Position numbers and translations under genes: made by a program. A DNA stretch of 64,000 bases. It comes from Amphiura filiformis (Eukaryota; Echinodermata; Ophiuroidea; Amphilepidida; Amphiuridae). Position 1 is the first letter of the stretch; each line of letters opens with the position of its first letter. Below the pieces are notes generated by a model. That model was not told where the DNA came from, made no database searches, and saw nothing but the letters and a program-made list of their open reading frames with translations. Positions 19,769-64,000 of the stretch are shown in pieces. The stretch is taken from contig NC_092637.1 in NCBI RefSeq assembly GCF_039555335.1, forward strand, positions 43,354,990-43,418,989, given 5' to 3'.

Positions 19769-21034
19769 ATGGAGCAGAGCGAGCAGGGTTTCTTAAATTA
19801 CCCTCTAATTACCAACCATCATTTAATATTGATGATTACATGGATTCGACGTTAGCAGTTACTCAAAATGTAGAAATTGACCAGTTTTTAACAGTTGACA
19901 CGGTAATGCAAAGATTATCTAAAGTTACCCACCAAGCATTTCGACGTATTCCGTTGCTGCTACTATGCGATAACGCCGAGTCAGCAATTGCATCGAATTT
20001 TCCAGAAGCCTACGAAATGCACAGATATTCTATAGAAACAAGGCTGTCAGCAGAGATTGGACATTTCAATTTTAGCCACGACAATTATTTCGCCACTTTG
20101 AATAAACCTTCCAGAGTGATCAAATCTGGCGTTCTGAATATTGACTACCTTGAGAACGAAACTACCATGCCCGAAATATGTCAAGTAAATACAACTTCGG
20201 CGGGCTTTCCAAATGCAGATACTGGGCTACAATTTTAGTCCCAATTTTGTTGGAGAAGATTTTATTGGAAATTGCATTAGTCTGAATTTCACCGAATTGA
20301 ATATGCAGAGACGAGCCATTGTATATCCGATGGCGGCATTCATATCAAATTCCAAGAAGCGGCTGTTGACTTTGCCTCATGAAGCAGAGACATTCATCCA
20401 ATCTATGAAACATTATGAAAAAGATGGCAAATGTGTGATTCCTTTGATGGATTTAAGTGCACAAAACAAGGTAAAATTTACCGATAACTGGTTTCTTAGT
20501 GGACTAAATTTGTGCCAGGAACATATTTCCAAAGGTGAAAACAATATGTTTACTAAACTTCGTGGGCGTTCAGAAGTTAACGGTGAAAATTCGCTTGCTG
20601 GATGCATTATGAGATTTTGGAAGCGCCAATACAATCAAGAAATATCAGATTCATCAAATCTTGACTTGGACTTGATCGAGGCAGGATTAAATTTATCACA
20701 AATTAAGACGAGAGGGTCAGAGCAGAGAATAACGAACGTCATTTCTCATATCAATTCGGATACAGACACGCAGACTGTATTCCGTCATTTATGTGACGAT
20801 ATTCACGCCAAACGTGCACAGATTCAAGACAAAAATGAACAAATTGACTGGCTGAAACAACGAGATGAAGAAAAAGAAATTCAAAATGAACTTTTTAAAC
20901 ATGAAATTAATAATAGATTTAATACTTTAAATACTCAAATAGTTGATTTAACGGCATATGTAATAAACGAATACTTTGAGCCTAATCAGGAAGATCTTTT
21001 TTCGGTAGGAGAATTGCATTCTCCGCTATTTTAA
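19769..21034 (+). pseudogene. Family L member 1, frameshifted copy
   Basis: This copy resembles the intact genes at 46150 and 55429. The shared block RRIPLLLLC corresponds to TVPRLLFC and SVPLLLFC in those genes. A later block (FPNADTGLQF, then FVGEDFIGNCISL) corresponds to FPYGLQF...GECISL. These two pieces are in different frames: frame one ends with TAG at 20236-20238, and homology resumes in the next frame from about 20234, at a TTTT run. The N-terminus is also doubtful: ATG 19769 runs into a stop after 28 codons, and the homologous frame has its first ATG at 19840. The tail (about 20800-20950) is coiled coil, as in the relatives. There are no introns. A single-base assembly error at the T run would make the break artificial. 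Function unknown. Confidence 0.7.
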
Positions 21035-29278: not shown

Positions 29279-31019
29279 TTCCTGCGTTAATATTGTGATA
29301 AGGCCTTTCGCACTTAATCGTCAGTTTCCTATTTACTGCCCGCGTTCCCACGTGAAAAAAGTAATTATTTGTTTAGATTTAATTATTTGACATAATCTGC
29401 TGAGAAATCAACATTTCGTATTTGGTGTTGGTAGAGCATTATCGTATTGTCCTTTATTAATTAGGTGATTTAATAAATATTATTAATTGCTTCAGCAACC
29501 CTGAAGTAAACAAACAAACAAAAACAAGGGTTAAAATCCTGTAAAATTCTGTAAAAATTCTACAAAAAGTATCAAAATCCCTACATTATAGGATATCCCT
29601 GTGTTATAAATCAATTTTATACGTCACATTTAAAATGACTTATAAATCGCCTTTAGAGATATAGGAGATATCTTGAGTCTCGAAAACATGTTTCCCATGA
29701 AATTATTTGTGATTCGAATTATTACTTGGTGTAACTATAATTTTGCTATCTACTGAAGATAGCATTCAGTAATCACTATGTGACAAGTCGTTTCTTGAAG
29801 TGTTTACTATTCTAAATATTAATACTTTTATATAAACTTACTTTACCTAGCCTACTCAACAATTTAGCAATTATGATGGCCAAAGGATTCTATAACTTAA
29901 ACGTCCTTACGCTAACAAAACTGTGCGGCTATAAAGTGTACATTCGAGAATTAAAATTTACACGCATTTACACCAATGTTATCGCAAGTCCGATTTTTTT
30001 TACACTCCAATGTGCATCTGAAGAGTAAATGGGATGTTCTTTTAACATTTCCTAATGGAAATTCCCAAACAATATTGCGAAGAAAAGCTGTGGTAAATCC
30101 CAATGTCATCTTCGGGGGTGTGTGACAAATTTCTGGAATAGCCCTATAAATCCCAATTTATGAAAAGCATACAAAAGTTTAGGGTCCAAAAAAACAAAGA
30201 AAGAGACGTGCATTAAAAACAAATACATACATACATGTACAATAGCCTTCGAAGCACACACTCCAATAGATATTTCGCTTGAATTTACTGTATGCTTTTA
30301 CAAAATGATTATTTTCGATATAAATATTCGAGAAATCGGGGAGTGCAGCTTAATCATGGGAACACAAAATGCAAATTTTCGCGCGCTTTTCTCGGTGGCA
30401 TTGACCGTAATCCTAAGCTAGATTGCTACAAACCCTAATATCTTTTCTGACAATAAATACAAAACTTCAGTATTCACTTATTTATTAATGAATATAATAA
30501 AAATATCTCCGAAGAAGTAAATGGCCACCAGCTGGTAATCTTTGACCAGTCATGTATAAAGTGAATGTAATTGTACATTGACTTGAGTAACTATTTGATA
30601 CAACTTTTGAATTGGGATATTTTTCATTCAAAAGGGTTACCATGCCTACAAAATTTGGGTTATGCAGACAAATAAAATATCAAAATTTGCAGAATTAATC
30701 CGTTAATTTCAATTGTTTTAATTTGATGAATAGAGTTTAAGTTTTATATTATAATAAAAGTGGTGCTTTTTTGAGATTCTAATTTTGCCTTCATGGATAC
30801 CGATAAAAGCTTTATGCTTGTTCATGTTTGCACAAACACAGCTGTACCATCTATTTTTTTTATCTCTAGTCATTACGACCAAACAAAATGTGTGAACATC
30901 AACACCTTTCTTTTATCATCTAGTCACACTTTAATAAAAAATAAAACCGACTTTACAAAAGACTATGACTGTGTGAACCAATTTATTTCATCCGTTCCAC
31001 GAAAGTTGATGTGAACATT
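29279..31019. other. AT-rich stretch without a gene
   Basis: No credible coding frame. It contains one exact copy of the 21-bp palindrome that forms the array at 60.7 kb (separate entry, 29744-29764). Confidence 0.5.
29744..29764. promoter_or_regulatory. Single copy of the TGCTATCT/AGATAGCA palindrome
   Basis: TGCTATCT, ACTGA, AGATAGCA: 21 bp identical to the units at 60691, 60745 and 60772. It lies about 1.9 kb upstream of the acidic-protein gene (27878, minus). Confidence 0.5.
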
Positions 31020-31800: not shown

Positions 31801-33069
31801 CACTGTAAAAATGGTGTCTTGGCAGAAGACACAAAACAAGACAGGTCTCATGAAGCCGGTTTTAAGACGCGTTTATATTCAAGACAGGTCTTATGAAGCC
31901 GGTTTTGAGACGCATTTATATTCAAGACAGGTCTTATGAAGCCGGTTTTGAGACATGTAATAACAAAGACATGTCTTGGGTACATCATGTCTTGATTCAA
32001 GACACCACTTGTATAAGACACGTTTGTATCCAAAACAGGTCTTGTGAAGCCAGTTTTTTTTGAGACATGTAATTAAAGAGACATGTCTTGGGTACATCAT
32101 GTCTTCGCCAAAGACATGTCTTTGCCAAAGATATATTTTGCAAAAAGACATGTCTTAGCTTATGTATCATCTCTTGCCCGCTTCGCGCTAAGAGAGGAAC
32201 ACTTCAACTCATCATCGCGGTGTTGAATAGCCATCAAGTGTATTTGATAGCACGGTGACACGTACTTTAAAGTTATCTTTAAAAGTATGGTCTTAAAAAA
32301 GAAAGTGCCGAAAATTCTTGTGTATTTCCTTAAAAATATATAATCCGTGGTGTTAAATAGCGTTTGCCCTGCGTTTTATCATCCATGGTTTTGTTTCCTA
32401 TTATTTCAACTTAGGTCCTCCAAACACTAGTACTCTTCACAAAAATTATTTGTTACCCAATTGTTACCAAAAAGCCTATATTGGCTTCTTCCAAGACGCA
32501 TCTCCAATTGGTCGCGTGTGATATGTCTCCATTCAAGACACACTGGTTTTAAGACATGTTCTACAACATTAATCCATGCGTCAAGTTGGACTGGTAACTT
32601 CTTCCAACGCGTCTCCAATTGGTCGTGTGTGATATGTCTCCATTCAAGACACACTGGTTTTAAGACGTGTTCTACAACATTAATCCATGCGTCAAGTTGG
32701 ACTGGTATCTTCTTCCAAGACGCATCTCCAATTGGTCGTGTGTGATATGTCTCCATTCAAGACACACTGGTTTTAAGACGTGTTCTACAAAATGTGTAAG
32801 ATAGACATGTCTTATTTAGTGTCTTGATCTCAGACATCAAGTAGGACTGGCAACTTGGTCCAAGACGCGTCTCCAAATGAACATGTGTGTTGTGTCTTCT
32901 GTCAAGACATGTTTGCTATGATGAGTCATGACACAGAATAATATATGTGTAATTAAGACATGACTAGGGAGAAGACGCTATATGGTTTGACGTGTCTTGG
33001 GAAAAGATACCAGATAAAGACACGTCAAATTTAAGACGTGTTTATTTGCAAGACACCCTTTTTACAGTG
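31801..33069. repeat. 1.27-kb foldback element built of AAGACATGTCTT-type words
   Basis: CACTGTAAAAATGGTGTCTT at the left is mirrored by the AAGACACCCTTTTTACAGTG right end. The interior is packed with AGACATGTCT, AAGACGTGTTT and TGAAGCCGGTTTT repeats. Short frames inside are products of the repeats. Confidence 0.85.
32485..32795. repeat. Tandem repeat, ~112-bp unit, three copies
   Basis: Units begin with CTTCCAAGACGCATCTCC or its variant near 32488, 32601 and 32712. Each contains TGATATGTCTCCATTCAAGA and CACACTGGTTTTAAGAC. The array is inside the foldback element. Confidence 0.85.
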
Positions 33070-34674: not shown

Positions 34675-37600
34675 ATGGCAGAATTTTTCGACAAATATGT
34701 ATTTGATAAATCCTCGATCTTAGGAAGTGGCGGCTATGGATCTGTGTTCTCTGGATTTTACAATGAGAGACCGGTAAGATTATTACATTTATCGTTTTAT
34801 TTCAATAGGCGTAACGAAACTTTATAAACAGTCGTTTAAGGTGACCTGATATATTTGGAAAATTGAATTCTTTTCAAGCAATCTTTTTCAAGCAAAAGTG
34901 TCAGCCTGATACGCTAATTGCCTACGGCATTTTTTGTAATTTTGAGAACAAAGTACAAAATACGGTTCAAACATTCATATAAACATATTCATTCACCAAT
35001 CTTTACACAAAAACGGATGATAATGATACTAATGAAAGGGAATAATTAGGTTGATTACATAACTGATGCATGCTTGAACCACATTTTGTTCTTTATTCTC
35101 AAAATTGCAAAAAATAACTCATTAGCGTAGCAGGCTGACGATATGCAGTTCAATATTTTGAGTAGATATGTATAGGCATAATGTTTACACGTTAGTTTTA
35201 ATTAATCATTGTTCCAGATATCAAACTTACCCGGATTATTTAAAATTTCTATTAATGCGTCTTTTGGATATATTTTTTAATTTCTGATACAGTGTCGGGG
35301 TTAGCGACAATTTGTGGCGCAATTTTTGCTTAGGCCCAAAATAATGTCGAGAACCTTATAACTGAAAATTACTGAAATATTTGTTTTCCATATGTTCACT
35401 AAACAATAATGGTATTTTTTTGTAAACCCCTACTCTTCACTTCACAAATAAGAGGTAAAAACCTGACAACATAATGAACTATTCCACAAAATAAGTGCAC
35501 ACCCTTGTAGAGGAGTAACTTTGAAATTAAAAATGCTTGGATTTCCAAGTTTGCTGTCTTTTCTAAAATGAAACTGGAAAAAGCTTGGAAATGCCATCAC
35601 GGAACTGTCCAAAATGAGCTCTCAAATTGAGGATTTTTTATTTTTAAATATTTTCTGCTGGATATTTTCGCATATATTGAATGCAATATTTCATTTCTTT
35701 TTCAGGTAGCTGTTAAAATGGTTGAACGGTTTAAAATAAGCAGCTGGGTTTACGTGAGTATTCTGCATTTTTTTAAAGACTGTCTCAATTGAAAACTAGT
35801 CTTGAATAATATAATTATTAAAACAATCTTTGTAAAATATTATTTCATATTGCAAAGTTAGCGATAAGCTGATTTTGTTTGTTTTTTTAGTATAAGCAAA
35901 GGCAGAAACACGGTTCAAGGAACTATTCTCAAGGCATCTTCGCAAAGAGGAAACTACAATAACCTTTCTTTGCAAAACTACATTGTAAAATATAATATGT
36001 ATAAACGAAAGACTTATTATATGTCCTTCAATTGAATACCTAAGTAGAAGAAGGGCCCAATTCCACTTTTTTTTATACAAAAGTGAGTTAGACCCCGCAT
36101 TTTATAGACTGTTCTTCCTCGTGTGTCAAAAACGTTTTGTGTTTGCTGGGATGTATTTTGTCAAGATGTTTTGGCGTAGGCCCTTAGGATGAGGCTTTTA
36201 CCCTGTGTAAATGTACACCTCATATTGACATATTTTTACGTGTATTTTATGCTATAACAGGATCAGACTATAGGAGAATACATACCACAAGAAGTGGCGA
36301 TGATGAAGAGATTAAGAGATGTTGAAGGCTGTATCAAAATCATAGACTACCATATTAACCCAACGGCGTGTTTCATCGTCATGGAACGGCCAGATCCAAC
36401 ACAGGACCTATTTGAGTTTGTGAAGGCTAAAGGCAGGCTTCCCGAGCCACTATGCAGGACTGTTTTAAAACAGATAGTTCAAACTACGATAGAGTGCCAC
36501 GAAATGGGAGTCTTCCACAACGACTTGAAGGAAGAGAACATTTTAATTTCGCCGGTGACAAATAAAGTCAAAGTGATTGACTTTGGGACTGCATGTTATC
36601 TACATCAAGGGAGTTACAGGTATATCCAAGGTAAGTACGAATGTAAAGATACACGCTGGAACAACTCAGCAGTTCTTCTGGGGGGAAACAAAGCTACCTG
36701 GTTATGAAATTAATCAGTGACAATGTTATCTCTAACAGGTTTTGATGCAATAACGTTAAAACATCATTGGACACGTGTCAAATTCAGAGTCAACTGTGTC
36801 ACTGTTTAATTTGATAACCAAGCAGGTTTGGTTCACCCCGGAAAAACACAATATTTTGCAGCGCATGAACGGACCCTAAGTCGTATACTTAAGGTCCGTT
36901 CATACTCTCCCTTCCGATAGCAAAAAAGCCCTATGGGCGTCAGGGTTAAAGTATAACGATAAAATTTTGTGATTAAATGCAATGATTTTACGGCCACTAA
37001 TTAACAATTGTTAAGTCACAAAAATCGTTACGTCTATTTTCTTCAAAAAAACATTATGTATCCGTAATTCGCCACACTGTGTAAAATGCGACATTCTTGC
37101 CTTCACTGTGTAACCATGTTTAGCAACTAATTATAAATTCCTAAACATCGATGAATATCCATACTCTTAACATGTTTAGTACTTAGTCTTGTTTACAAAT
37201 TGAACGCAAGAATGTGTTAAGAAAAGTCTTTTAAGGGACCGTGATTCCAGAAAATAAAAACCTGGAATATTTTCAAAATTAGTCTGGAATTTCAGCGGTT
37301 TCTATTTATGTTTTTTATTATAATTTTCAGACACCATGAGCAAAAAAGAATGGAATTTCAGACATAATAAGCTGCAGACAAAGTCTGGATTTCAAATGCC
37401 CTCTATATGGTCGTTTATTTTCTGAAATAGCCCATTGCAACGCTTAGCACTGGTTTTGTAGTGCACGTAATATTTATTATCTATTCAATGCAACATCGTT
37501 CACACATTTTCACACAAGCGGTTAAGGGGTGGGGGTATGAACGTTTGGGCAGTATTTTTGTGGGATTGAGAGCACATCGGACATATCGAATTGTATTCTG

Positions 37601-38400
37601 AATACGAAGAATGGACAAATTATTAAAATTTTCTAAATTTTTGATATTTAACAGTCATCGAAGTAAACTTTATAAATCTAATGATGTGCTTAAAGTGTAT
37701 GTAGCTGGGATGAAAAGCCGACGATCAATTGAAAATTTTGACCTTTCGTATTGGAAATATGGATTTTCACAAAATACCTACAAAATTTAAGTCTTTTGGG
37801 GGAAAAAACGTAGGGCCTATATCTTCAAATCAATTGATCGGCGGCTTTTCATCCCAGCTACATACACTTTAAGTACATTTCATTAGATTTATTAAGTTTT
37901 AATAATCTGTCGTAAAAATTTGTATTACATCGCAAATTTCAAAAATCTAAATTATTTTGATATCATCAGGACATTCCTCGTATTCAGAATGCAATTCGAT
38001 ATGTACTCTCAGCTCCCACAAAAAATACGTGAAAACGTCGATAAAATCAAAAGCTGTTTTATATTTTGGAAAAAAAATGATACTAACGTACACATATTTT
38101 GTTATTTCAGGCACTACCCAGGCCTTATGGCCCCCGGAATTATTGTCAAGTGGTTATTACTTTGCAGAATCAGCTACAGTGTGGGCCCTGGGACATATTT
38201 TATATGGAATGGCGATTGGAACCAACGCTTTTGCAGAAGACCCGCCGACTCAAATTCTATACGAGGCACCCGTATTTTATAAGCCGGTTTCGTGTTATTT
38301 ACAGCATCTGATTTGCTCTTTACTATCTAAAAACCCCGAAGAAAGACCTTCTTTAGAAGATATTCTAGCGCATCCATGGATGACATTAACACATCAGTAA
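34675..38400 (+). CDS. PIM-family serine/threonine kinase, four exons
   Basis: Exons 34675-34773, 35706-35753, 36261-36630 and 38111-38400 have GT/AG borders and consistent phases and give about 268 residues. Kinase landmarks are LGSGGYGSVFSG (glycine loop), VAVK, EVAMMKRL (helix C glutamate), HNDLKEEN (HRD with R replaced by N, catalytic D kept), VIDFG and PPE. The stretch MERPDPTQDLFEFV matches the PIM hinge region closely. An upstream in-frame ATG (34621) is less likely because it lies only 18 bp after the TATA box, and the paralogue at 54.4-55.2 kb starts at the position equivalent to 34675. PIM kinases are constitutively active, pro-survival kinases set by expression level. The last intron holds a foldback element without breaking the exons. 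A likely poly(A) signal, AATAAA, lies near 38895. Confidence 0.88.
37523..38040. repeat. Foldback family B, copy 4, in kinase intron 3
   Basis: Has the left terminus AGTATTTTTGTGGGATTGAG, the arm cores near 37715 and 37835, and a degraded right terminus CAGCTCCCACAAAAAATACG ending about 75 bp before the last kinase exon. Confidence 0.8.
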
Positions 38401-46149: not shown

Positions 46150-47214
46150 ATGGCAAACATGCAGGAACCAACAATTGATGTAAATTGTTACGGCGATATC
46201 AAATTCGCCAGCCTACAGGATATTTATAAGGGACGAATGCAATGTACCAGCCGATCCTTCACCACTGTACCCAGACTACTGTTTTGTACTCACGAAGACG
46301 AGGCGGTTTATGCAGTAGCTTGCAATAGTCGTGAGGCTAGGGAAATGTTGACAGTGTATCTCGAGAAAGATCTGCACAGCAAACTATCTTTCAAACTTGA
46401 GCCAGCTGAACCGGTCAACTACAAACGCCCTTCTTCAAATGCAAGTGGAAGTGTAATCAACTTCGATGCTGTACCAGCAGTCACCATCCAGCCAATAATG
46501 CTTGAACGAGATCAAAAATTGCCCAATGCCTGCTACAGTATTCAATGCGCGATTCCAGTACTGGTTGAGGAAAATGAGTTTACTGGCGAATGTGTCGTAT
46601 TAAAATTGAACAACGGGACACACTATAGAGCCTTAGTTTACCCGTATACCATGAACGTAGGGGTAAAAAGTGGTAAAACGTTAACATTACCGCTGGAAGC
46701 AGTGCAGCACGACTTAGGCCATCTATTCGTAGTAGAAGAGGGAGAAAATGCGCTGGTAAAACTGCCAGGTTCTGGTTACATCAAATACGCTGCGGGTAAA
46801 TGGAATGTCCAATCACCTCTTATTTACGCATCGCCAGGCTATTTGGAGCAATACGTGCCAACGGAAAAGTGTTGCAAAGCCAGTGTGGATATTTGGAATG
46901 AGAGAAGTGTCGTCGGCTGCTTTTGCAAATACTTGCAAATGAAAATACCAAATTTGTTTGACTGGACGCTTATAAATTCTGAATCGGGTGCAGAGCGAAG
47001 TTCTCAATTGTGTAAAAAGTCAATCATTGAGGAAAAGAATCTCATTATAGAAGATTTACGCCAGCAGTGTCAAAGTAAAGATGTAGAATTGGATAGATCC
47101 AGAGTCCATATCGATAAGCTGTTCGATATGATTGAAAGGATGTCACAAAGTTATTACGAATTGTTGCCGAAACTAGTGCAAAAACCAGAGTACCAAAATC
47201 CCGCTAGCGTCTAA
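46150..47214 (+). CDS. Family L member 2, 354 residues, unknown function
   Basis: Intact single exon. The N-terminal about 250 residues match the gene at 55429 in conserved blocks: TVPRLLFCTHEDE, AVACNSREAREML, LEKDL, ASGSVINFDAV, YSIQCAIP and FTGECVVLKLNNG. A second globular part ends near residue 275 (VVGCFCKYLQMKIPNLF). Residues about 285-345 are a coiled coil (IIEEKNLIIEDLRQQCQSKD onward). No signal peptide, membrane segment or known enzyme motif is seen. The promoter is compact, with a TATA box 40 bp upstream of the ATG. The layout (globular head, coiled-coil tail, no introns) suggests an oligomerising cytoplasmic or nuclear protein. I do not recognise the family. Confidence 0.8.
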   Translation: MANMQEPTIDVNCYGDIKFASLQDIYKGRMQCTSRSFTTVPRLLFCTHEDEAVYAVACNSREAREMLTVYLEKDLHSKLSFKLEPAEPVNYKRPSSNASGSVINFDAVPAVTIQPIMLERDQKLPNACYSIQCAIPVLVEENEFTGECVVLKLNNGTHYRALVYPYTMNVGVKSGKTLTLPLEAVQHDLGHLFVVEEGENALVKLPGSGYIKYAAGKWNVQSPLIYASPGYLEQYVPTEKCCKASVDIWNERSVVGCFCKYLQMKIPNLFDWTLINSESGAERSSQLCKKSIIEEKNLIIEDLRQQCQSKDVELDRSRVHIDKLFDMIERMSQSYYELLPKLVQKPEYQNPASV

Positions 47215-48289: not shown

Positions 48290-49725
48290 ATTTATTGAAG
48301 ACCGAATTAAAAAGACTAGTACAGGAGGATGACACGGATGATTTACGAATCAAAAGTTAATCATCTGTTACAAGATGAAAAGACTTATGAAAAACTGGAA
48401 TCAGATCCAACACCTAAATACAAAAGACAGCTCATTGGTATACTATCAAGACTGAAGAAAAAAAAGAAAATCAATGATAAGCAATACAAAAAGCTATACC
48501 CAACTGCTGATAATGTTCCGCGATTGTATTGTACGAACAAAATACACAAAGAGGGCAATCCCGTTCGCCCAATTGTAGATTATACCCGTACAATCGGCTA
48601 TGAAACATCTAGAGAGTTGGCAGATATCCTCGCGCCGCTGGTTGGAAATAGTGTCCATCGTGTAAAGAATTCTAAACAGCTCGCGGAGGACATGGCAAGT
48701 GTATTTATTGAGGAGGATGAAATCTTTAATAGCCACGACAGACTTAAACAAGACACGGAATTAAAGAACAGGACAAACTTAGATGCGACAGACATTGTTG
48801 AATTACTAAAGTTCATTCTCACAACTACCTATTTCTTATTCCGAGGTGACGTGTACCGGCAAAAATTCGGGGCTGCTATAAAACACCTACACTCCAAAGA
48901 AAAGAAACCTTGCAGTCATACCATACGTGCAGGGTTTGTCAGAAAGAATTCAAAGAATCTACAAGAAATATGACATTACCACGGCCATGAAACCACATAC
49001 AACTCTGAGACGTCTATTTTTACACCCAAACGAGAAAAGGGAAGTTGTGGATACAGCCAACTATGTGTACGAAATTCCTTGTAGTGGCTGTAAGTCAACT
49101 TATATAGGTGAAACAGGTAGACAATTTTGCATTAGACTGTCTGAACATAAAAAGGACGTGGACAGAGCTTGTTCTAGAAAATACACCAGATCAGAACGCA
49201 AAGTTTCCGAGAGCGAACAAAATAAGGCAACAAGAACCAATCATTTAATTAACTGGGAGGAGTCGAGAATTATTGATAAGGAGGAGGTACGTATCAAGCG
49301 ATGGATAAAGGAATCCATATGGATCAGAAGGAGGGGAATGAACAACACCATGAACCGAGACGAGGGCACATACAACCTGAGCAATCTCTACAACCCTGTG
49401 CTACAAAGCGACTCAAGAACTGGCAACACCAGGTCGTACAGTATAGCAGAGTTTCATTACAACTCTGAAGAAATCCGACTGAACAAGACGGATGAAACGT
49501 CAGTTGGTGAGTTATTACCATCTATTCACCACAATCTATTGGTTTTGTAAAAACAATCTGTAATTATTTGAACAATAACAAACCTGATGAATCTCTACAG
49601 TAGTACGAGGTCCTGTCAACCAGGCCTAAAATGCCGTACTGCGCAGGTCAGTAACCAATCACGTCGCTCCTTTGCCCTGACGTCAGACGCAAACTAGTGT
49701 TTTTTATTCGGTCTTCAATGATAAC
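48290..49725 (+). mobile_element. Penelope-like retroelement, internally deleted, with GIY-YIG end
   Basis: The first frame (48329-48973) carries the N-terminal part and RT fingers (VPRLYCTNKIHKEGNPVRPI). It then jumps out of the RT before the catalytic YxDD motif. A second, overlapping frame (48927-49550) holds the C-terminal GIY-YIG nuclease: YEIPCSGCKSTYIGETGRQF, HKKDVDRA, TNHLINWEESRIIDKE and RWIKESIWIRRRGMNNTMNR. The element is bordered by ATTGAAGACCGAATTAAAAA at the left and an inverted TTTTTATTCGGTCTTCAAT at the right. With the RT core missing it cannot be autonomous. It separates family L member 2 from the RING gene. Confidence 0.85.
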
Positions 49726-50844: not shown

Positions 50845-51672
50845 TCAACATTTGAAAATTCGTTTCTTCTCAGTGATATGCATGCGGCATATAGGACATT
50901 TATCATCAATGTGAGATATGCACTCATCGCAACAAACCATATGAAAACAAGGGATAAATACCCGATTTATACTTTTATTTTCGAAGCAAATCTTGCAGCC
51001 CTCTTCACCGTCATCTGTATTATCCCCGTCAGATATGGAAGGCGTAATTTTCGTTACGTAAATTGTAGCATGACCCGACAGGTTTGAGGACGGAAATGTT
51101 ACCGCAAAAAAATCTCGGACTGTAGAATATCCCGAAGCTTCCAAGAACAAGTTGTTCACCCGTGAATGGCTACCATTTACGATAGAGTGCCCAGATGCAG
51201 TAATAGAAATCTGCGTATAGGTTTTGTTCGGCAAACACAGAGTAGAATTGCCAGAAGCGTTAATCCATAATTGGTCATTAAGAAACTTTGGGGCAACTTT
51301 TAAGGTTGCATTTCCTTCCACATGTAGCGTTTTCAACCGAATAGTCGCATCGAGTACGTGATTCCTGGACGATAGGCCCCCTATCGGTCGGTGATTTAAG
51401 CCAGAATCCCCGTACGCAACATTCAGAGTTGCACCATGATTTCCAATGATAACCATGTTACCATTCCCACTGATATTGTAAACATTACCACGAACATTAC
51501 ACTTGCTTCCAAAAACCTTAGAGAAATTGTTTTCACCGGTTCCAAATGAGTCAGAGTTTATAAACAGGACTGACCCACTCTGTCTTATCCTACAGCCTCG
51601 GATATTACCTTTAGCGTCAATCTCGGCAATTGTACTGCCAGCGACACAAACTTTATCAACGCCTGAATACAT
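50845..51672 (-). CDS. Beta-repeat (GIN/DUF2807-like) protein with C-terminal RING finger, 275 residues
   Basis: Single exon. ATG 51672 is the first Met after an in-frame stop 36-39 bp upstream. Residues about 8-205 are a run of short beta-strand repeats with a 'SGxSxxx' rhythm (ASGNSTLCL, ASGHSIVNG, ASGYSTVRD, LSGHATIYV). This resembles the head-GIN/DUF2807 fold. Residues 226-262 form a C3HC4 RING: C226-x2-C229-x12-C242-x-H244-x3-C248-x2-C251-x7-C259-x2-C262. It is closest in style to the RINGs that end IAP and related E3 ligases. Likely role: E3 ubiquitin ligase with a beta-solenoid-like substrate or scaffold part (inference). No signal peptide is present, so it is probably cytoplasmic. A TATATATA box at 51761-51768 lies about 90 bp upstream. 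Confidence 0.82.
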   Translation of the reverse strand: MYSGVDKVCVAGSTIAEIDAKGNIRGCRIRQSGSVLFINSDSFGTGENNFSKVFGSKCNVRGNVYNISGNGNMVIIGNHGATLNVAYGDSGLNHRPIGGLSSRNHVLDATIRLKTLHVEGNATLKVAPKFLNDQLWINASGNSTLCLPNKTYTQISITASGHSIVNGSHSRVNNLFLEASGYSTVRDFFAVTFPSSNLSGHATIYVTKITPSISDGDNTDDGEEGCKICFENKSINRVFIPCFHMVCCDECISHIDDKCPICRMHITEKKRIFKC

Positions 51673-52452
51673 GTCATTACCGTTCGAATCAGTCAGATTA
51701 TAATACGGTTAAAATAAAACGTTTCATAACCTTTGCTACAGGTATAAAGTTTGTTCGGTTTATATATAAGGCGGAAAAAACATAACACCGTGTATCGATA
51801 TAGAATTGCATGCACGCAGTGGGCGCAATGCTTACGCTAGTTGTGTGTTGCGTAATGCGTGGCTGGCGCACGCTTATGTAAATTTTCGCGAGCGCGAGTT
51901 CGGACTTTATGAGCGTGTGCATTTACAAAAGCGCGTGTCTGGGCAGTTCGAGTAGGTGAGATCAGTGGCTGCCATAGACATACATAGACTCGTTTGTTTG
52001 TCTGGGGTGGCTGTGCCCATGGCTGCGTGTAGGTTATTCCGTATCAATCCATGATGTTATGAGTCCCGCTATATGTAATGCACTATATAATGTCCCTTAC
52101 AGCGTGGACATTTTAATGTTTGCTCAAAGTGGATTTCTACTTAGCCGTGAGTATAAAGCATTAGGAAGATTAAGATAGAGTTTGTTCGCAATGAATTTAT
52201 ACAGTATTTCAAATAATTAAGAACAGGGAAACGTTTTCTGTTCCAAGTTAGAAGTGGATAGCAACGATGAGGAATACAGACGTGCGAGACATGTCATACA
52301 TTTTCTCGGTAATTATAATTCGACAAGAAGAGATTTAATCTGCACGAATCTGGCTGGCATATCGTTGTAAACGTCGGCAGTTAATATAAAATCCCCGCAC
52401 CTCCCTTAACAATAATCTTGTACGTATACTTCTCTACGTCTCGGTGGAAGTG
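51673..52452. promoter_or_regulatory. Divergent promoter region between RING gene (-) and F-box gene (+)
   Basis: Minus-side TATA at 51760-51769 and a TTGCGTAA site at 51848-51855. Plus-side TATAAAA at 52385-52391, about 60 bp before the F-box ATG. CpG-rich words (CGCGAGCGCGAG) lie at about 51887. No gene is visible in between. Confidence 0.55.
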
Positions 52453-53580
52453 ATGTTTTTAGACGACTACAGTTGGTATTGCATCTTCGAATATTTTTCA
52501 CCATGGGAAAAGCTGCTGACCCTTTCATTGGTGTGCAAAGATTGGAATCGTCTCGTTCAAACACCGTCTTTGTGGAAGACCGTAGATTTCGGCACTCGGG
52601 TATGCAGCGAAAGACAGGCAAGAAGCATAGCCAGAACTTTGGACAGGTACACCGGTGAAAACACTTTGTTCGTTCAGGTCCCCATCGTAACCCCCGAGAT
52701 CCAAACGGTGCTGCTAACAAAATGTAGGAGCAGTTTGAAATATCTGCGAATTTGGCACAATAGGGAAGATCTAGACGGTGCTATTTTGACGCCCAATTTG
52801 AAGGAGCTTTGCATAAGAGAGTCGAGTAGAAAATTGTATTCCTTTATTCGACGAATACATGTCGAAAATATGTCGCCTTTACGTTATTTAGAAAGGTTAG
52901 AGCTGCAACGCGTTTACATCTCCCGTGACATATTTGATCGTTTACTCCGTGGGCGTTGCTTGCAACACGTGCGCTTCTCCGAGTGCATTTTCCAATTCAC
53001 CGTCGGCTCGATTGTAAACCCTTTAGACAGTCGATTGACATCTTTCAACGTCGACAATTGTAACCACGCGACATCTGACCACCAGATAACGACGCATCCG
53101 TGTCGATTGGCGGAGCTGATGCCGCTGATAAAATGCATGAAAAAGGTCGATTGCATTGAACTTGACGAGCAGCTTGAGGTTAAAGGGAACTCTTTCGTAT
53201 CCCAATTTACAAAACCTGTACCATATTTATCTTTACGCTACTTCAGAGGCCACATAACAACGATACTGGGACGGAACTTGCTCGAATTAACGTTATTTCT
53301 TTGTCACTTTGAAAAGGACGCTTTCAAAGAAATGCACCTCGTCTGTCCTTCCTTAAGACTCCTCCAACTATTCGTATGCTCAAAGTTAGGATCTAAGTCG
53401 TTAAAATCATTAGCAAAATTACCCACTCTAAAGGTTTATCTCTCACGGGAAAATAAGACTTGTTTATCGAGCCTATGTCATAGCGGCGTTAAATATGAAC
53501 ATGTACCGTCGTTGTCTACCCGCGCCCCGAGTTCTCACAAACCCTTTACACTATGTTTAACGGGTGGTTTTATGATTTAG
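52453..53580 (+). CDS. F-box protein with leucine-rich-like C-terminal part, 375 residues
   Basis: Single exon. I start it at the ATG at 52453; the frame is open three codons further up only through GTG. Residues about 1-45 are an F-box (YSWYCIFEYFSPWEKLLTLS, then LVCKDWNRLV, PSLWKTVDF). The rest has spaced leucine-rich segments (LKYLRIW, NLKELCIRE, YLERLELQRV, LLELTLFLCHF, LRLLQLFVC), consistent with irregular LRRs as in FBXL-type proteins. Such proteins bring substrates to SKP1-cullin ubiquitin ligases. With the RING gene transcribed away from the same promoter region, two ubiquitin-pathway genes sit back to back. A TATAAAA box lies at 52385. No introns, unlike most host FBXL genes. Confidence 0.85.
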   Translation: MFLDDYSWYCIFEYFSPWEKLLTLSLVCKDWNRLVQTPSLWKTVDFGTRVCSERQARSIARTLDRYTGENTLFVQVPIVTPEIQTVLLTKCRSSLKYLRIWHNREDLDGAILTPNLKELCIRESSRKLYSFIRRIHVENMSPLRYLERLELQRVYISRDIFDRLLRGRCLQHVRFSECIFQFTVGSIVNPLDSRLTSFNVDNCNHATSDHQITTHPCRLAELMPLIKCMKKVDCIELDEQLEVKGNSFVSQFTKPVPYLSLRYFRGHITTILGRNLLELTLFLCHFEKDAFKEMHLVCPSLRLLQLFVCSKLGSKSLKSLAKLPTLKVYLSRENKTCLSSLCHSGVKYEHVPSLSTRAPSSHKPFTLCLTGGFMI

Positions 53581-55428: not shown

Positions 55429-56904
55429 ATGGGCGAATCCGATTCATTCAATAAACTAGCATCGCAACTCGACTTCATCTTTGAAAATTATGACGTAACT
55501 GATATTTTACAGCAGTCATCACGAGAAGTCGAGCCCGAATTGGAGTTGCACAATTTTAATGGAGTGGAAATTCCTCACATCAACGAGGTACGCCAACTCT
55601 CTACCCTAAATAGCAGGGGCTTTTCGTCAGTACCCCTGTTGCTTTTTTGCACGTCCGAAAGCAAACGGTTACGCGCTGTTGCGTGCAATTGCAAAGAGGG
55701 TCGCGAATTGCTACGAGTTCATCTCGAGAAAGATTTGCGGAGACTTGGAAGCGATTTTCTGTTGGATATTGACGGACAAACAGATAGCGAATTCGGTATT
55801 TACAAACGTTTTTCGAGAGCCAGTGCGGGCACGGTTCTGGATTTTGACACGGTCAAAAATGACAATATAGAACCTATTATCATTCCCTCGGATTCCAGGT
55901 ATCCGAGATTTCCGTACGGACTTCAGTTTGCCATTCCATTGATAGTAGGAGATGACGATTTCCCGGGAGAATGCATCAGTCTAAAGAGAGGGGATGCGAA
56001 TATCGGCAGAGCGTTGTTATTTCCATTTGTTACGTACAGCGCTATGTCCGAAAAGTCTACTCGAAAACTTATTCTAACCGAGGAAAGAGCTAGCGTTTTA
56101 CGTTCGTCGGCTTTGCCAATGGTCAGCGTCGATGGCCAAGTATGTGTATCTCTACCAGACCAGAGTTTCTTTAAAAATGTCAAATATGTAAGTGGAGAAT
56201 GGAAACTGTCAGATGCTCACATTACGCCAAATATAGCACGCAATCGCGTCAAGAAATACGTGTCGGTAGTGAAAAGTAACAAAACTGATGTGCCTGTCTG
56301 GTTGGAAAAAAGCTTGGCCGGTACATTTTTTCAGTATGTACAAGAAAGAAAGCCAAGCGTGTTTGCTGATTCAGATCGAAGGGACTTCGTGGAGGGTGTT
56401 ATTGCCGGCGACGGACCCATTACTAGAAACATCGAACAACGAGTGAATTGCGTCCAAGAGGATATCAACAACGCCAGGGAAGATACTAGGCGGTATGTGG
56501 AACTTTTAGAGCAACAACAGCGAACCTTTGACCAGGTGGTTGTACAAAATGACAAGCTTATAGAACAGAAAGACTGTCTCATTGAGGAGATGAGGAGGAC
56601 GCATAAAGAAACCATTGCTGTTAAAGATGCTACAATCAGAGAAAAAGAGGCCATAATTAGAGAAAAAGACGAGATCATAAAAGAAAAGTCTGAGGCATTA
56701 AATGCTGTAAAAAGTCAGAATGGCAAAATGTTCGCGATGTTTGAAAAAACTGTACAGCTTAATGACGATTTGAGGCAAAACGTAACCGAACTAAATACTG
56801 AAGTGAAGAATTTGAAGCGAAATTCTTTGAAACGCAGCTATGACGACATGCGTGAAGAAGCCATGAAGCGTAGATGGGAAGACTCTGAAATAAGATCCTG
56901 CTGA
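55429..56904 (+). CDS. Family L member 3, 491 residues, long coiled-coil tail
   Basis: Intact single exon and the longest member of the family. The head matches the gene at 46150: SSVPLLLFCTSES, AVACNCKEGRELL, LEKDLRR, ASAGTVLDFDTV, YGLQFAIPL and FPGECISLKRGDANIGRAL. It has a longer N-terminus (about 50 residues, MGESDSFNKLASQLDFIFEN). Residues about 340-470 form a long coiled coil with a DATIREKEAIIREKDEIIKE heptad stretch. The end is basic (NLKRNSLKRSYDD, AMKRRWED) and could be a nuclear localisation signal. Function unknown. Transcribed divergently from the PIM-type pseudokinase. Confidence 0.82.
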   Translation: MGESDSFNKLASQLDFIFENYDVTDILQQSSREVEPELELHNFNGVEIPHINEVRQLSTLNSRGFSSVPLLLFCTSESKRLRAVACNCKEGRELLRVHLEKDLRRLGSDFLLDIDGQTDSEFGIYKRFSRASAGTVLDFDTVKNDNIEPIIIPSDSRYPRFPYGLQFAIPLIVGDDDFPGECISLKRGDANIGRALLFPFVTYSAMSEKSTRKLILTEERASVLRSSALPMVSVDGQVCVSLPDQSFFKNVKYVSGEWKLSDAHITPNIARNRVKKYVSVVKSNKTDVPVWLEKSLAGTFFQYVQERKPSVFADSDRRDFVEGVIAGDGPITRNIEQRVNCVQEDINNAREDTRRYVELLEQQQRTFDQVVVQNDKLIEQKDCLIEEMRRTHKETIAVKDATIREKEAIIREKDEIIKEKSEALNAVKSQNGKMFAMFEKTVQLNDDLRQNVTELNTEVKNLKRNSLKRSYDDMREEAMKRRWEDSEIRSC

Positions 56905-58912: not shown

Positions 58913-59152
58913 AAATAAATCATCAATAACACACAGTGATGCAGCTGAAATGACTTTATTTAAATTCGATTGACATATCATACCTATATTTTTGCACAAG
59001 GTGAAAGTTTTGCAACGTGTGTCTAAACGTAGATAATAACAACTGAAAGCATGCCTTATTTTTAAGCTCTCTTTGGCCAACATGAGCAAGTTTCGTGTAA
59101 TTTGATCAACGTTTTACGAGATTATTTATTGCGGAACCGTGGCACTGTATTA

Positions 59153-59582
59153 TCTTGCTCATAACTAAAAAACTCGCGGCTTGCTTGAGCTTTACACGAT
59201 TACATAATAACGGTTTATTGGATCGCAATTAGTCGTATGATAGCTAATCCTCCGAGAAGTGCACCAGTCACCAGCAATGAGTTGAAAAATAACTTTTCTT
59301 TCCAGTCTCTAGGTTTGAAGTACAGGTTGAAATCATCCTATATAGTAACGAAGCAATAAATAAAAATCTTGCTCATAACTAAAAAATACTCGCGGCTTGC
59401 TTGAGCTTTACACGATTACATAATAACGGTTTATTGGATCGCAATTAGTCGTATGATAGCTAATCCTCCGAGAAGTGCTCCAGTCACCAGCAGTGAGTTG
59501 AAAAATAACTTTTCTTTCCAGTCTCTAGGTTTGAAGTACAGGTTGAAATCATCCTATATAGTAACGAAGCAATAAATAAAAA
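59153..59582. repeat. Recent tandem duplication of the BCL-2 gene's last exon, ~214-bp unit
   Basis: TCTTGCTCATAACTAAAAAA begins at 59153 and again at 59367. The two units are almost identical (one 2-bp insertion and two substitutions that I can see). Each contains a complete terminal exon with its own acceptor (exons 59215-59337 and 59431-59553, minus strand). Confidence 0.9.
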
Positions 59583-60080
59583 TACGTGGGTTAAACATGA
59601 ACACGTATAGTTTCTTAGTATTATCATTATTATCATAGGTTTGTTTTTTAATTTAAATTGTATTTGACTTACCCATCCACCTTGCATTTTAATCCAAGGA
59701 GTCAACTCTTTATCAATGTAGCTGGCGGAAAGAGAAATGACGTTTCGTACGTAGTCAGGCTTACCAGAATCTTCATAATATTTAGCAAGACGGGCTGCAA
59801 ACACAAATATCATAACTATTCTGCCCCAACTACATTGCCCGTCCGCGAACATTGCGTTTAAACTTTCCAAATAAGCTCGTGTATGCGCATTTTCTGGGTC
59901 AAATTTGTTCAAAATTCCAGCTAGACTTATTTGGTATTGTTTTTCTATCTGCATTCCTATTCTCCGGAGAGTCTTAGATTCGCTGGTTAATGGTTTACAA
60001 CGACTCTTTCCTAGTCTAAAGTATATGTAATCTTCGCTTAATAATAGAGCAACGGAAGAAACCGGGTTTGCGGTAGCCAT
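59215..60080 (-). CDS. BCL-2 family apoptosis regulator, two exons with duplicated last exon
   Basis: Exon 1 is 59673-60080. The last exon is either 59431-59553 (proximal copy) or 59215-59337 (distal copy), phase 0, and either gives 176 residues. A BH3-like LRRIGMQIE lies at about residue 40. BH1 is GQCSWGRIVMIFVFAARLA. BH2 is TPWIKMQGGW at the exon end, continued by DDF in the next exon. The C-terminus is a hydrophobic anchor (LLVTGALLGGLAIIRLIAI). The BH1-BH2 layout and tail anchor fit a multi-domain member at mitochondrial or ER membranes. The intron directly after the BH2 GGW matches the conserved position in animal BCL2 genes, so the gene descends from a genomic animal copy. Pro- versus anti-apoptotic activity cannot be told from sequence. 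Both last exons encode the same residues. A TATAAATA box lies 37-44 bp upstream of the ATG. Confidence 0.9.
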
Positions 60081-60116
60081 ATTTCATTTACTAATTGCCG
60101 ATCAGAAGAACAAGGC

Positions 60117-60124
60117 TATTTATA
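60117..60124 (-). promoter_or_regulatory. TATA box of the BCL-2-like gene
   Basis: TATAAATA followed by GCC on the minus strand, nearly identical in context to the TATA box of family L member 3 (TATAAATAGCC at 55340). Confidence 0.6.
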
Positions 60125-60349
60125 TCGTATAGATTGCGAACAAGTTAATCGTCCTTCAGGCGCGGAGTACCGTAAAAGAACGGTTAGCTATGTATGTTAA
60201 TGATGCTGTCTTATATAGACACATCGTATCTTATTAATGAAGTTATAACAGAAACAGTGATCTTATAAGATGGTGGATAAGTGTAGGTCATTGTGATAAA
60301 ATAGATTTTTGACGATGCCTTTTGCACGAATCGTTCTTTTTTCAAAGAG

Positions 60350-60792
60350 CGTTATCTTTTAAGATAGCATACATTGATACGTGTGCTATCTGCTGAAGAT
60401 AACATTCATTGATAGTGTGCTATCTTCTGAAGATAGCATACATTAATTATACTTGCTCAATTTACCATAATATACATTGATATCCATGCTATCTGCATAC
60501 GATGGGATACGTTGATAAGTATATGCGTGCTATCTATACTGAAGATGGCTATAGGCCTAAATGATGTGTGCTGTCTACTGAATATTGTATACATAGCTAT
60601 CTATATATCAAACGATATAATATATCGAAGATAGCATACATTAATTATACTTAATGATACGTATGCTATCTTCAGTAGATAGCACACGTATGCTATCTAC
60701 TGAAGATAGCACACGCATGCCATCTACTGAATATAGCACAAGCGTGCTATCTACTGAAGATAGCATACGTGTGCTATCTACTGAAGATAGCA
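60350..60792. promoter_or_regulatory. Palindrome array (TGCTATCT-ACTGA-AGATAGCA), possible enhancer or replication origin
   Basis: The right half is a regular array: 21-bp units start at 60664 (inverted), 60691, 60718 (degenerate), 60745 and 60772, that is every 27 bp. The left half (60358-60660) holds looser copies of GATAGCATACATT and GTGCTATCT. The array lies between the divergent BCL-2-like gene (-) and the compact block on the plus strand, and abuts a TATATAAA box at 60793-60800. Confidence 0.7.
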
Positions 60793-60800
60793 TATATAAA
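60793..60800 (+). promoter_or_regulatory. TATA box at the right edge of the palindrome array
   Basis: TATATAAAGGGCC; the last palindrome unit ends at 60792, directly before it. Transcription would start near 60825 and read the block to the right. Confidence 0.6.
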
Positions 60801-60836
60801 GGGCCATACATTTTAAATAAATATTAGGATGAGCCA

Positions 60837-61028
60837 ATGTTCAAATTTGATAGCCATCAGTACAATAGGGTCTTTTGGTCTATCCGTCGGCACGATATAT
60901 GTCGTGTGACTCGGTCACAAATAAATCACTTAAAAATGTATTATTTATGTTTTAGCGATGGAGCGATAAATGATATACATCATAACTGTCGTCATTCTTT
61001 TTTGTACGCTATTCAATGGATAGAATGA
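60837..61028 (+). CDS. Possible small leader protein or upstream ORF, 63 residues
   Basis: First ATG after the TATA box, MFKFDSHQYNRVFWSIRRHD..., ending 13 bp inside the next gene in another frame. No known domain. It may be an upstream ORF that controls translation of the membrane protein rather than a gene. Confidence 0.3.
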   Translation: MFKFDSHQYNRVFWSIRRHDICRVTRSQINHLKMYYLCFSDGAINDIHHNCRHSFLYAIQWIE

Positions 61029-61894
61029 CGACGGCGTCTCGAAAAATTCTAGACAATGCTAAATTTCGGCAAAATAAAGCAGCGCATTTTGCATTCACCG
61101 GTACGCTAAAAGCGCTGGTGAAAACGATCGCGAATTTCGCCCTTTTAAAATCGTTTTTATGGGTAGCTCTATGCGTCGCGGTATGTTGCATCGTCGGAGA
61201 ATTCAGTGTATTCGTGATAAGTCGTACGATCGGTTATGTGGCGCTGGCGATATACGATGTTTGTCGGGAAATCAATAAAATATTGAGTAACGACGTCTTC
61301 AACGACTTAGCTGATGGAACGGTGAGCGTTTTTTGCAAGCTATTTCACAACAAAAAGTGTATACGCTACTCGAAAAATCACACTACGGGAGATTTCATTC
61401 CTAGAATTAAACTCGGCGAAGTAAGAACAATATCTCAACTGGCTTTTGGGCAATGCCGAGACTTTGATACGGCCGTTAAAGTTTTTCGATATTTTTTCCT
61501 ACTGATTGCAGGTTCGGAGATATGTGACAACCTCGCTTGGTACGACTCTTTGACACTGACCCATTACCTCGTGTACACGCCAGCACGTTGGGTGTATTGG
61601 ACAGACTCCACTGGAAGTTGTCGCCTGACGACGACTACTAATCTTTGCGCCTTCGCTGGTACCGAGTTGATTTTCAACTTCATCTTAAACGACGTCTTGT
61701 TGCCTTCCATTATAGTCATTGGCTGTTGGCCTTTAATCCGTAACACCTTCGAATTTGCCCTGAATGAAATTTATTTCTTATTTTACGAAATTCGTTACCT
61801 CTGTTTTCGACTGCACCCCAATAAACAATGGAAATCATCTCTGCGTTCATTTTGGTCCAGACGACATTTTCATCTTTCCATCTCCCCCAATTGA
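61016..61894 (+). CDS. Multi-pass membrane protein, 292 residues, unknown family
   Basis: Single exon beginning MDRMTTASRK. The N-terminus is basic. Hydrophobic segments lie at about residues 46-70 (FLWVALCVAVCCIVG and on), 160-172 (VFRYFFLLIAG) and 220-245 (ELIFNFILNDV to IIVIGCWPL). The C-terminus is basic (RSFWSRRHFHL). Cysteines are frequent between the segments. No match to a known receptor, channel or viral envelope family comes to mind. Its 3' end overlaps the 3' end of the minus-strand glycoprotein-like gene by 25 bp. Confidence 0.72.
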   Translation: MDRMTTASRKILDNAKFRQNKAAHFAFTGTLKALVKTIANFALLKSFLWVALCVAVCCIVGEFSVFVISRTIGYVALAIYDVCREINKILSNDVFNDLADGTVSVFCKLFHNKKCIRYSKNHTTGDFIPRIKLGEVRTISQLAFGQCRDFDTAVKVFRYFFLLIAGSEICDNLAWYDSLTLTHYLVYTPARWVYWTDSTGSCRLTTTTNLCAFAGTELIFNFILNDVLLPSIIVIGCWPLIRNTFEFALNEIYFLFYEIRYLCFRLHPNKQWKSSLRSFWSRRHFHLSISPN

Positions 61895-62934
61895 TTCAGG
61901 TGTGGATCTGTTCTTTTGCGAATATATTGAGCCTTTTGAAAAAACTCCAAAAGAATGCTGGTGATGATAATGCTTAAAACTGCCCAAATCGTGTAACGAG
62001 TTACTTCTGTCGTACTTATTCTGGACGATTGTACTTTTTCGCAATCGTCTGTTTGGAGGAAGCTGTCTATATCTAGTAACCTAAAATTAGATCCTGTGAT
62101 CGAAAATCGGTCACTAACACGAGATGTCTCCACGATTGATACGTTGTGAGCTGTAATTTCCCCAGCACAACGGTCGAATTTTATTGTAGCGTCGTTGATG
62201 TAAGCGAATGAACAAGATTCCAAGTAGACTCGGTTTAATTTTGTCGTTGGAGAAATAAAAATGAGAACGGGAGTCGTGTCGTAGGGCTCCTGCTGTAATT
62301 TCACCGTCGAAAATGATAGATTTTGCAGGGTTACATTGTTAATGTATCGATCATTTTGAATCAGCAACGCTGCACGATTGATGTGAGTCACTAGGGGTAG
62401 CAAAGTAGCGCATTCCGTGTTGTTTATCGCGAAATCAGTTAGAAAAACGTTCCCTTCTGACAATTTTAAAAGGGCGCATGGCATTTCGTCGTAATCACTG
62501 TGTGCAAAACTACGGAAGGAAGGAGTACGTTTAACTAATACCTGTCGACTACTAGTACAGAATGGTTTGATGGTGATCATCGTCTTTGACGTCGAAATCT
62601 CCACCGTTTCTCCATCTAAATAAGACACCGGATGATCGCAATTATCGTTATCTGGTTTAACGATGTATGTCTGCGGTTTTGTCTTCAATTTGTCCAGTTC
62701 ACGTAACCTTCCTGTACACAGAGAACCGTGGTTTTGACAAGTTAACGGAGAAATGTCTTCAACAAGTATCGTAATGAGTAAAAAGGCTGTTGTTTGTGCA
62801 AGATATGTCGAGGCTGGAATTGTACAGAAAACACGGATTTGCGACGTTCCGAGCAACATTTTTATCGTAGACGGATCGCAGTTTCGTACTTGCGATTCTT
62901 TATTGGATGGTACCGTTGGCAAAGCGATTCTCAT
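61870..62934 (-). CDS. Type I membrane protein with beta-helix-like ectodomain
   Basis: Single exon, 354 residues from ATG 62934 or 329 from ATG 62859. The later start places a hydrophobic signal-like stretch (TYLAQTTAFLLITILV) nearer the N-terminus and is my preference. The ectodomain (about 260 residues) has several N-glycosylation sequons (NNT, NVT, NLS, NVS) and repeating beta-strand turns (NNVTLQNLSFSTVKL, LNRVYLESCSFAYIN, ITAHNVSIVETSRV), suggesting a right-handed parallel beta-helix. Near the C-terminus is one membrane segment (YTIWAVLSIIITSILLEFF) followed by a short basic tail. This is the architecture of a surface or envelope glycoprotein; which one is unknown. Its 5' end overlaps the next plus-strand gene head to head. 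Confidence 0.72.
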   Translation of the reverse strand: MRIALPTVPSNKESQVRNCDPSTIKMLLGTSQIRVFCTIPASTYLAQTTAFLLITILVEDISPLTCQNHGSLCTGRLRELDKLKTKPQTYIVKPDNDNCDHPVSYLDGETVEISTSKTMITIKPFCTSSRQVLVKRTPSFRSFAHSDYDEMPCALLKLSEGNVFLTDFAINNTECATLLPLVTHINRAALLIQNDRYINNVTLQNLSFSTVKLQQEPYDTTPVLIFISPTTKLNRVYLESCSFAYINDATIKFDRCAGEITAHNVSIVETSRVSDRFSITGSNFRLLDIDSFLQTDDCEKVQSSRISTTEVTRYTIWAVLSIIITSILLEFFQKAQYIRKRTDPHLNQLGEMER

Positions 62935-63664
62935 TAATCATTCCACAGTCGATTCAAATATCCATTTTATCGCCGTCTTACTGGGTGCAGACGTTGGAAG
63001 CAAGATTGCGATGTTTGAAAAAACTTTGAATGATTCCAATTTACCAGATTTCCCGACCGTTTTTTGGTTTACATCGAATCGACTCGGCCTACAAACCTGG
63101 TGGAAATGCGTACGTAGAAGCACAGATACACGTTCAAAACGTTTAGCGCAAACGCTAGAAAAAACTCTTACAGAAAAGTATTCCAGCTGTCCCGCGCAAA
63201 GTACTTTTGGTTTAGCTAAAGTTTTGTTCGATCTTTTTTCACGTTTAAGCGAGAGCAGGGAGTCGAGTAGAATACTGCAAATGCCCGGGTCCGAAGATAA
63301 ACTCGTAACCTTTCTGTTGTGCACGCAAAATCAACGTTGGGTAGTATTATTGGAAGATGTCAAGTATACAAACATTGATGGGTCAATTGAAGATGTCGGA
63401 GTAGCTCCAATTTCAAACTTTTCTTTAGAAAAGGTTTACGAAACTGCCTGTCCTGACTTAAAACTGCCTGCAAACGACTACGTACAATTTTCGATAGAGG
63501 AAAAGGGTTATGGCGTCAAATTTCGATCTTTTCTAAGTAAGTATCGAATGCATCGTGCCTTTCGTTGGGGGTCTTTTCTTTTCGTATCTCAGACTGAGGC
63601 ATCTGGTCGAGATATTTTTGAAAAGGCGGCCTTGGACGGGTATAAACGTATACAAGATACTTAG
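62774..63664 (+). CDS. Unknown soluble protein, about 296 residues
   Basis: Single exon. ATGs at 62753 and 62774 are both possible; the second follows directly at MSKKAVVCARYVEAG. Codon pattern in the first 60 codons looks genuine even though the segment overlaps the opposite-strand gene. No membrane segment. Features are YVEAGIVQKTRICDV, FWFTSNRLGLQTWWKC and, near the end, HRAFRWGSFLFVSQTEASG. No known domain recognised. It is 11 bp from the next gene on the same strand, so the two are probably co-regulated. Confidence 0.7.
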   Translation: MSKKAVVCARYVEAGIVQKTRICDVPSNIFIVDGSQFRTCDSLLDGTVGKAILINHSTVDSNIHFIAVLLGADVGSKIAMFEKTLNDSNLPDFPTVFWFTSNRLGLQTWWKCVRRSTDTRSKRLAQTLEKTLTEKYSSCPAQSTFGLAKVLFDLFSRLSESRESSRILQMPGSEDKLVTFLLCTQNQRWVVLLEDVKYTNIDGSIEDVGVAPISNFSLEKVYETACPDLKLPANDYVQFSIEEKGYGVKFRSFLSKYRMHRAFRWGSFLFVSQTEASGRDIFEKAALDGYKRIQDT

Positions 63665-63675
63665 GAAACAACAAG

Positions 63676-64000
63676 ATGCATTCGGATTGCTTGTACGAAG
63701 GTGTCGTACTTTGTCAAACGAAACACTTTCGTGAAGACGAGTTGTGGACGAGAAAATGGCACAAAAAACTGCAGATGGCCAGCAGTTTGACTTCTCCTCT
63801 TTTACTCGATTCTTCCGGTAAACGCCACCGGACGCTGGTCGACATTGATAACCCTACGTTTTATCGAGCTCTACGACGCGGCTACTCGTGTCAGGTTGAA
63901 CTGACTAAGGAGCACAATAAGACCGGACAATACTTGTACGGTTGGACGTTGTATCTAAAACTCGCAGATGAGACGTTACAACCTATTCATGCAAACCTAA
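63676..64000 (+). CDS. Unknown protein, 5' part only, continues past the window
   Basis: Begins MHSDCLYEGVVLCQTKHFRE and stays open for 108 codons to the window end. Codon use is like the preceding gene, with many C/G third positions. Other stretches are LWTRKWHKKLQMAS and NPTFYRALRRGYSCQVEL. It starts 11 bp after the stop of its upstream neighbour. I do not recognise the family. Confidence 0.65.
   Translation, partial: MHSDCLYEGVVLCQTKHFREDELWTRKWHKKLQMASSLTSPLLLDSSGKRHRTLVDIDNPTFYRALRRGYSCQVELTKEHNKTGQYLYGWTLYLKLADETLQPIHANL

Follow-up and report, generated by a model that had tools for sequence, protein, structure and literature searches.

A compact intronless gene block beside a Bcl-2 gene in Amphiura filiformis: a candidate endogenous large DNA virus

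The window, that is, the whole stretch of 64,000 nucleotides of Amphiura filiformis DNA analysed here, ends on its right in a compact block of four genes (A to D), bordered on the left by a palindromic array that lies between a Bcl-2 gene and gene A. The features of this region are as follows.

60358-60800, unstranded: palindromic array of near-perfect units around TGCTATCTACTGAAGATAGCA, with 27-nt spacing in its right part and a degenerate middle.
60793-60799, plus strand: TATA-box-like sequence that overlaps the final unit of the array and precedes the 63-aa ORF by 44 bp and gene A by about 220 bp.
60837-61028, plus strand: doubtful 63-aa ORF between the array and gene A, with no Pfam match above cut-off.
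61016-61894, plus strand: gene A, 292 aa, predicted polytopic membrane protein, with relatives P0003-P0008 (46-75% identical).
61870-62859 (ORF open to 62934), minus strand: gene B, 329 aa from the supported start or 354 aa from the longest ATG, type I glycoprotein-like, with relative P0002 (52%).
62774 (or 62753)-63664, plus strand: gene C, 296 (or 303) aa, without known family, with relative P0001 (52%).
63676-64000, plus strand, cut by the window end: gene D, at least 108 aa, without known family.

Between positions 61016 and 64000, 2974 of the 2985 bases are coding when B is counted from 62859 and C from 62774. Genes A, B and C each form a complete, single, uninterrupted frame, and D remains open up to the end of the window. 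The longest stop-to-stop frames in the block span 355, 308 and 302 codons, as against a maximum of 206 codons among 200 random sequences generated from a first-order Markov model of this stretch, and this excess, together with the clear relatives of A, B and C, indicates that these reading frames are not due to chance. Neither introns nor a recognisable cellular family, as would mark ordinary host genes, were found in A-D, and none of the four reached the Pfam cut-off, in agreement with the first-pass annotation, which had assigned them to no host family. The ORF coordinates likewise bear out the 25-bp tail overlap between A and B (61870-61894) and the 11-bp gap between C and D (63665-63675) that had been described. 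The head-to-head overlap of B and C, previously given as about 85-180 bp, is present, but its upper value (182 bp) is reached only with the longest ATGs of both genes, and the starts of their relatives favour a shorter one.

The relative of B begins near B residue 24, for which the nearest ATG is at 62859, and B therefore probably starts there and not at 62934. With this start and an ATG start of C, the overlap measures 86 or 107 bp. The relative of C begins near C residue 37 (about 62861), where the window has no ATG, so that, barring a non-ATG start, C would begin at 62774 or 62753; the head-to-head overlap may hence be absent in the relative. The tail overlap of A and B is probably particular to the copy in the window and not conserved, since P0002 stops 13 residues (39 nt) before the end of B.

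The protein encoded by A carries strong hydrophobic segments near residues 50-68 and 218-236, with counterparts in each of its six relatives, and weaker segments that vary among family members. The two strong segments flank a loop with conserved cysteines and a conserved N-glycosylation sequon (N-x-S/T) at N121; eight cysteine columns and this sequon are invariant across all seven aligned sequences. From these patterns we infer that A spans the membrane several times and exposes to the secretory lumen a loop that is glycosylated and held by disulphide bonds. The structure prediction for A was of low confidence (mean pLDDT 46), and fold comparisons with this low-confidence model were uninformative, the search of viral folds returning nothing below E 0.1. 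Protein B shows a signal-peptide-like start (mean hydropathy 1.46), an ectodomain and a C-terminal transmembrane segment. Both B and P0002 have one hydrophobic segment near the start and another near the end, and the two share eight ectodomain cysteines and three of eight sequon columns. The hydrophobic segments of A and B thus correspond to the earlier description of a multi-pass membrane protein and a type I glycoprotein-like protein. In the 303-aa form of C, residues 70-88 (mean hydropathy 1.59) form the only stretch above the threshold of 1.4 that we set for mean hydropathy, and C may not be soluble, as this stretch is about as hydrophobic as the signal-like start of B. The structure prediction for C was also of low confidence (mean pLDDT 30). 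No stretch above the hydrophobicity threshold occurs in the 108 residues of D in view.

Relatives of A, B and C were sought among approximately 5.8 billion proteins, with candidates required to share exact 5-residue words with the query. This search recovered six relatives of A (P0003-P0008, with P0004 at 71% identity), one of B (P0002, 52% identity, 88% of the query aligned) and one of C (P0001, 52% identity, 87% of the query aligned), a number that, for so large a collection, we judge unusual for an animal gene family. P0001, P0002 and P0004 are each listed with the source lgn, which we take to be the Logan assemblies of public reads, and with a longest contig of exactly 39,758 bp. The identical length and common source suggest that the three sit on one shared contig, and the listing of relatives of all three genes with this contig indicates that the A-B-C block probably recurs as a unit elsewhere. 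P0003 comes from a 907-bp contig of source jgi, and P0005-P0008 from contigs of 1,050-6,685 bp. Pattern scans of IMG/VR, which depend on conserved segments of short length and would overlook remote relatives, found none for A (single sequence and alignment), B (alignment), C (single sequence and alignment) or D (single sequence), IMG/VR being the one collection searched for D. The A alignment likewise drew no relative from a pattern scan of bacterial and archaeal genomes. No significant match of A-D to a named virus emerged from Pfam or from the IMG/VR scans. As had been noted before, no viral hallmark (polymerase, capsid, terminase or packaging ATPase) was recognised among A-D within the 3.2 kb in view.

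The block had also been credited with a base use sharply different from that of the DNA to its left. For GC content this does not hold, as the values of A-D (41-46%) overlap those of seven other cellular-type ORFs in the window (35.5-43.6%; among them the RING-finger ORF at 41.5%, the F-box ORF at 43.6%, the 55429-56904 ORF at 43.0% and the Bcl-2 exon at 38.3%), with two mobile-element-type ORFs at 31% and 41%, and the contrast is mostly one between coding and noncoding DNA. CpG content, on the other hand, is distinct. The observed/expected ratio is 1.36-1.55 in A-D, as against 0.65-1.26 in eight other ORFs (a separate measurement gave 0.61 and 0.68 for the two mobile-element-type ORFs), and the block overlaps the top five of 127 1-kb windows for this ratio; one of these five begins at 60501 and takes in part of the palindromic array, and the 1-kb window at 61501, with a ratio of 1.27, is no higher than several to the left. 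Compared with synonymous-codon shuffles, CpG counts are 62 versus 55.7 (s.d. 3.0) in A, 56 versus 52.0 (s.d. 2.7) in B, 54 versus 44.5 (s.d. 2.8) in C and 24 versus 20.6 (s.d. 1.7) in D. These excesses of 1.5 to 3.4 s.d. do not set the block apart, because the F-box ORF shows a comparable one (68 versus 58.1, s.d. 3.0; 3.3 s.d.).

To the left of the array, a Bcl-2 gene lies on the minus strand (Pfam E 1.8e-24), with a GT donor at 59672; the exon encoding its hydrophobic tail, to which this donor would be spliced, lies downstream and is preceded by AG. Its terminal coding exon is contained in a 216-bp tandem duplication at 59152-59583 (98% matches), both copies of which encode the same hydrophobic tail. 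Further to the left, a kinase domain is divided between two frames (36258-36704 and 37951-38397), and we take the left side of the window to be animal chromosomal DNA. The array unit has 16 matches in the window on both strands at three mismatches or fewer, where 0.00 are expected by chance, and a further exact 21-nt unit occurs as a single copy at 29744-29764 of the same contig. The array probably belongs to the host lineage, and the block would accordingly have its border at the array or shortly beyond it. Three matches to TATAWAW were found between 60300 and 64000, all in or at the array (60602 and 60793 on the plus strand, 60798 on the minus strand), and none in this interval precedes B, C or D.

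A compact, uninterrupted gene block thus lies in a host contig, as would be expected of an endogenous large DNA virus. We read it as virus-derived, namely as the left-hand margin of a cluster of genes that derives from an as yet unclassified animal DNA virus, large and probably enveloped, and is most likely integrated beside the Bcl-2 gene, at or beside the palindromic array, and we give this reading a probability of roughly 0.52. On this reading, a viral cluster would have been inserted into the host chromosome adjoining the Bcl-2 gene; A would be a polytopic glycoprotein of the envelope or the secretory pathway, B would act at the surface in attachment or entry as a type I glycoprotein, and C and D are putative internal or regulatory proteins. 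The packing without introns, the opposed genes, the two surface-type glycoproteins, the probable recurrence of the block, the scarcity of relatives and the high CpG content, each of them circumstantial, favour a large enveloped DNA virus over host genes. The candidacy for an endogenous large DNA virus advanced in the first-pass annotation is partly supported, by packing, lack of introns, glycoprotein-like genes and probable recurrence, and weakened by the absence of a hallmark gene and of a named-virus match among A-D. Also counting against it are the GC content, which is like that of other ORFs in the window, the comparable CpG excess of the F-box ORF over its synonymous shuffles, and the lack of a TATA-like match ahead of B, C or D. 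An endogenous large DNA virus is the leading, unproven hypothesis, and the term endogenous draws entirely on the continuity of the contig with the genes to the left, that is, with the intron-bearing Bcl-2 gene and the kinase domain split over two frames. A bolder extension, tentative and in our estimate rather unlikely, is that the block represents a hitherto undescribed family of enveloped large DNA viruses infecting invertebrates, which would integrate at a palindromic repeat of the host. Their surface proteins, a polytopic glycoprotein with eight cysteines and a type I glycoprotein, would then have no relative in any named virus.

The same locus could be accounted for by a fast-evolving cluster of intronless host genes, or by a non-viral mobile element encoding membrane and surface proteins, and this we regard as a serious if unlikely alternative. 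The GC content of A-D matches that of other ORFs in the window, long single-frame ORFs are present elsewhere in it (the F-box ORF at 52444-53577 and the ORF at 55429-56904), the F-box ORF likewise exceeds its synonymous shuffles in CpG, and the block is without a viral hallmark. A host cluster or mobile element, however, sits poorly with a packing of nearly every base among opposed genes, with a block that has very few relatives in a huge collection and yet probably recurs, with a tblastn search that found A-D nowhere else in the window, and with the highest CpG observed/expected ratios of the ORFs compared. A quite unlikely explanation is that host DNA was misjoined at the palindromic array to an exogenous virus or to DNA from some other organism in the sample, in which case nothing here would be endogenous. 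Assemblies can break down in repeats such as the array in which the join would fall, and the uninterrupted ORFs and undepleted CpG suggest little decay; against this, the interval 59000-64000 contains no run of N, and the exact array unit at 29744 links the array, but not the block itself, with the left part of the window. Lastly, transfer from a parasite or a symbiotic eukaryote with a compact genome, or a similarly foreign but non-viral source, would fit the want of a convincing viral relative and the N-glycosylation sites, which indicate a eukaryotic secretory pathway and not a virus as such; we hold it highly improbable, given that relatives are few anywhere and that A had none in the bacterial and archaeal genomes scanned.

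Large DNA viruses are already known from animal chromosomes in lancelets, crustaceans and fish, and a virus-derived block in A. filiformis can be compared with each. In lancelets, BelcheriHV-1 is an integrated malacoherpesvirus with flanking repeats, 27 of 62 ORFs of BelcheriHV-1/-2 match malacoherpesviruses, and whole-genome gene density in such integrated viruses is 70-85%, with only 37% in one block (PMC12373286). The block resembles BelcheriHV-1/-2, as described there (PMC12373286), in its tightly clustered genes within an animal genome, in its flanking repeats and in a GC content a few points above that of the host, but differs in that no named virus could be matched to its four genes and that the 3.2 kb in view contain no capsid or replication gene. 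Endogenous nimaviruses of crustaceans are large DNA viruses inserted in host repeats, with hypothetical proteins in their genomes, features that the block would share; their insertion targets are microsatellites (telomere-type (TAACC)n and (AT)n) or 28S rDNA, and they encode an integrase, whereas the left border of the block is a palindromic array (PMC10871703). No integrase was recognised by Pfam in the 3.2 kb in view. Teratorn-type endogenous herpesviruses of fish are likewise carried in host genomes as sets of large-DNA-virus genes, a membrane glycoprotein among them, but Teratorn is fused to a piggyBac-like transposon, and none was recognised at the block (PMC5822658). Should the viral reading be true, a new lineage would widen this host range, and A, B and C would serve as markers to pull related contigs from public reads.

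Several other features lie to the left of the block. The ORFs at 46150-47214, 55429-56904 and 19708-21034 are three members of one protein family (28-33% identical, no Pfam match above cut-off), the first two forming single long frames and the third being split over two. A RING-finger protein (50848-51672; Pfam E 2.7e-11) lies near the F-box ORF, itself one long frame; no Pfam match covers the N-terminal part of the RING-finger protein. Adjoining retroelement-like ORFs occupy 48320-49547, of which the second matches GIY-YIG weakly (E 0.001, short of the cut-off). A match to U3 snoRNA is located at 32177-32294 on the minus strand, with a score of 40 bits where the gathering score is 34.
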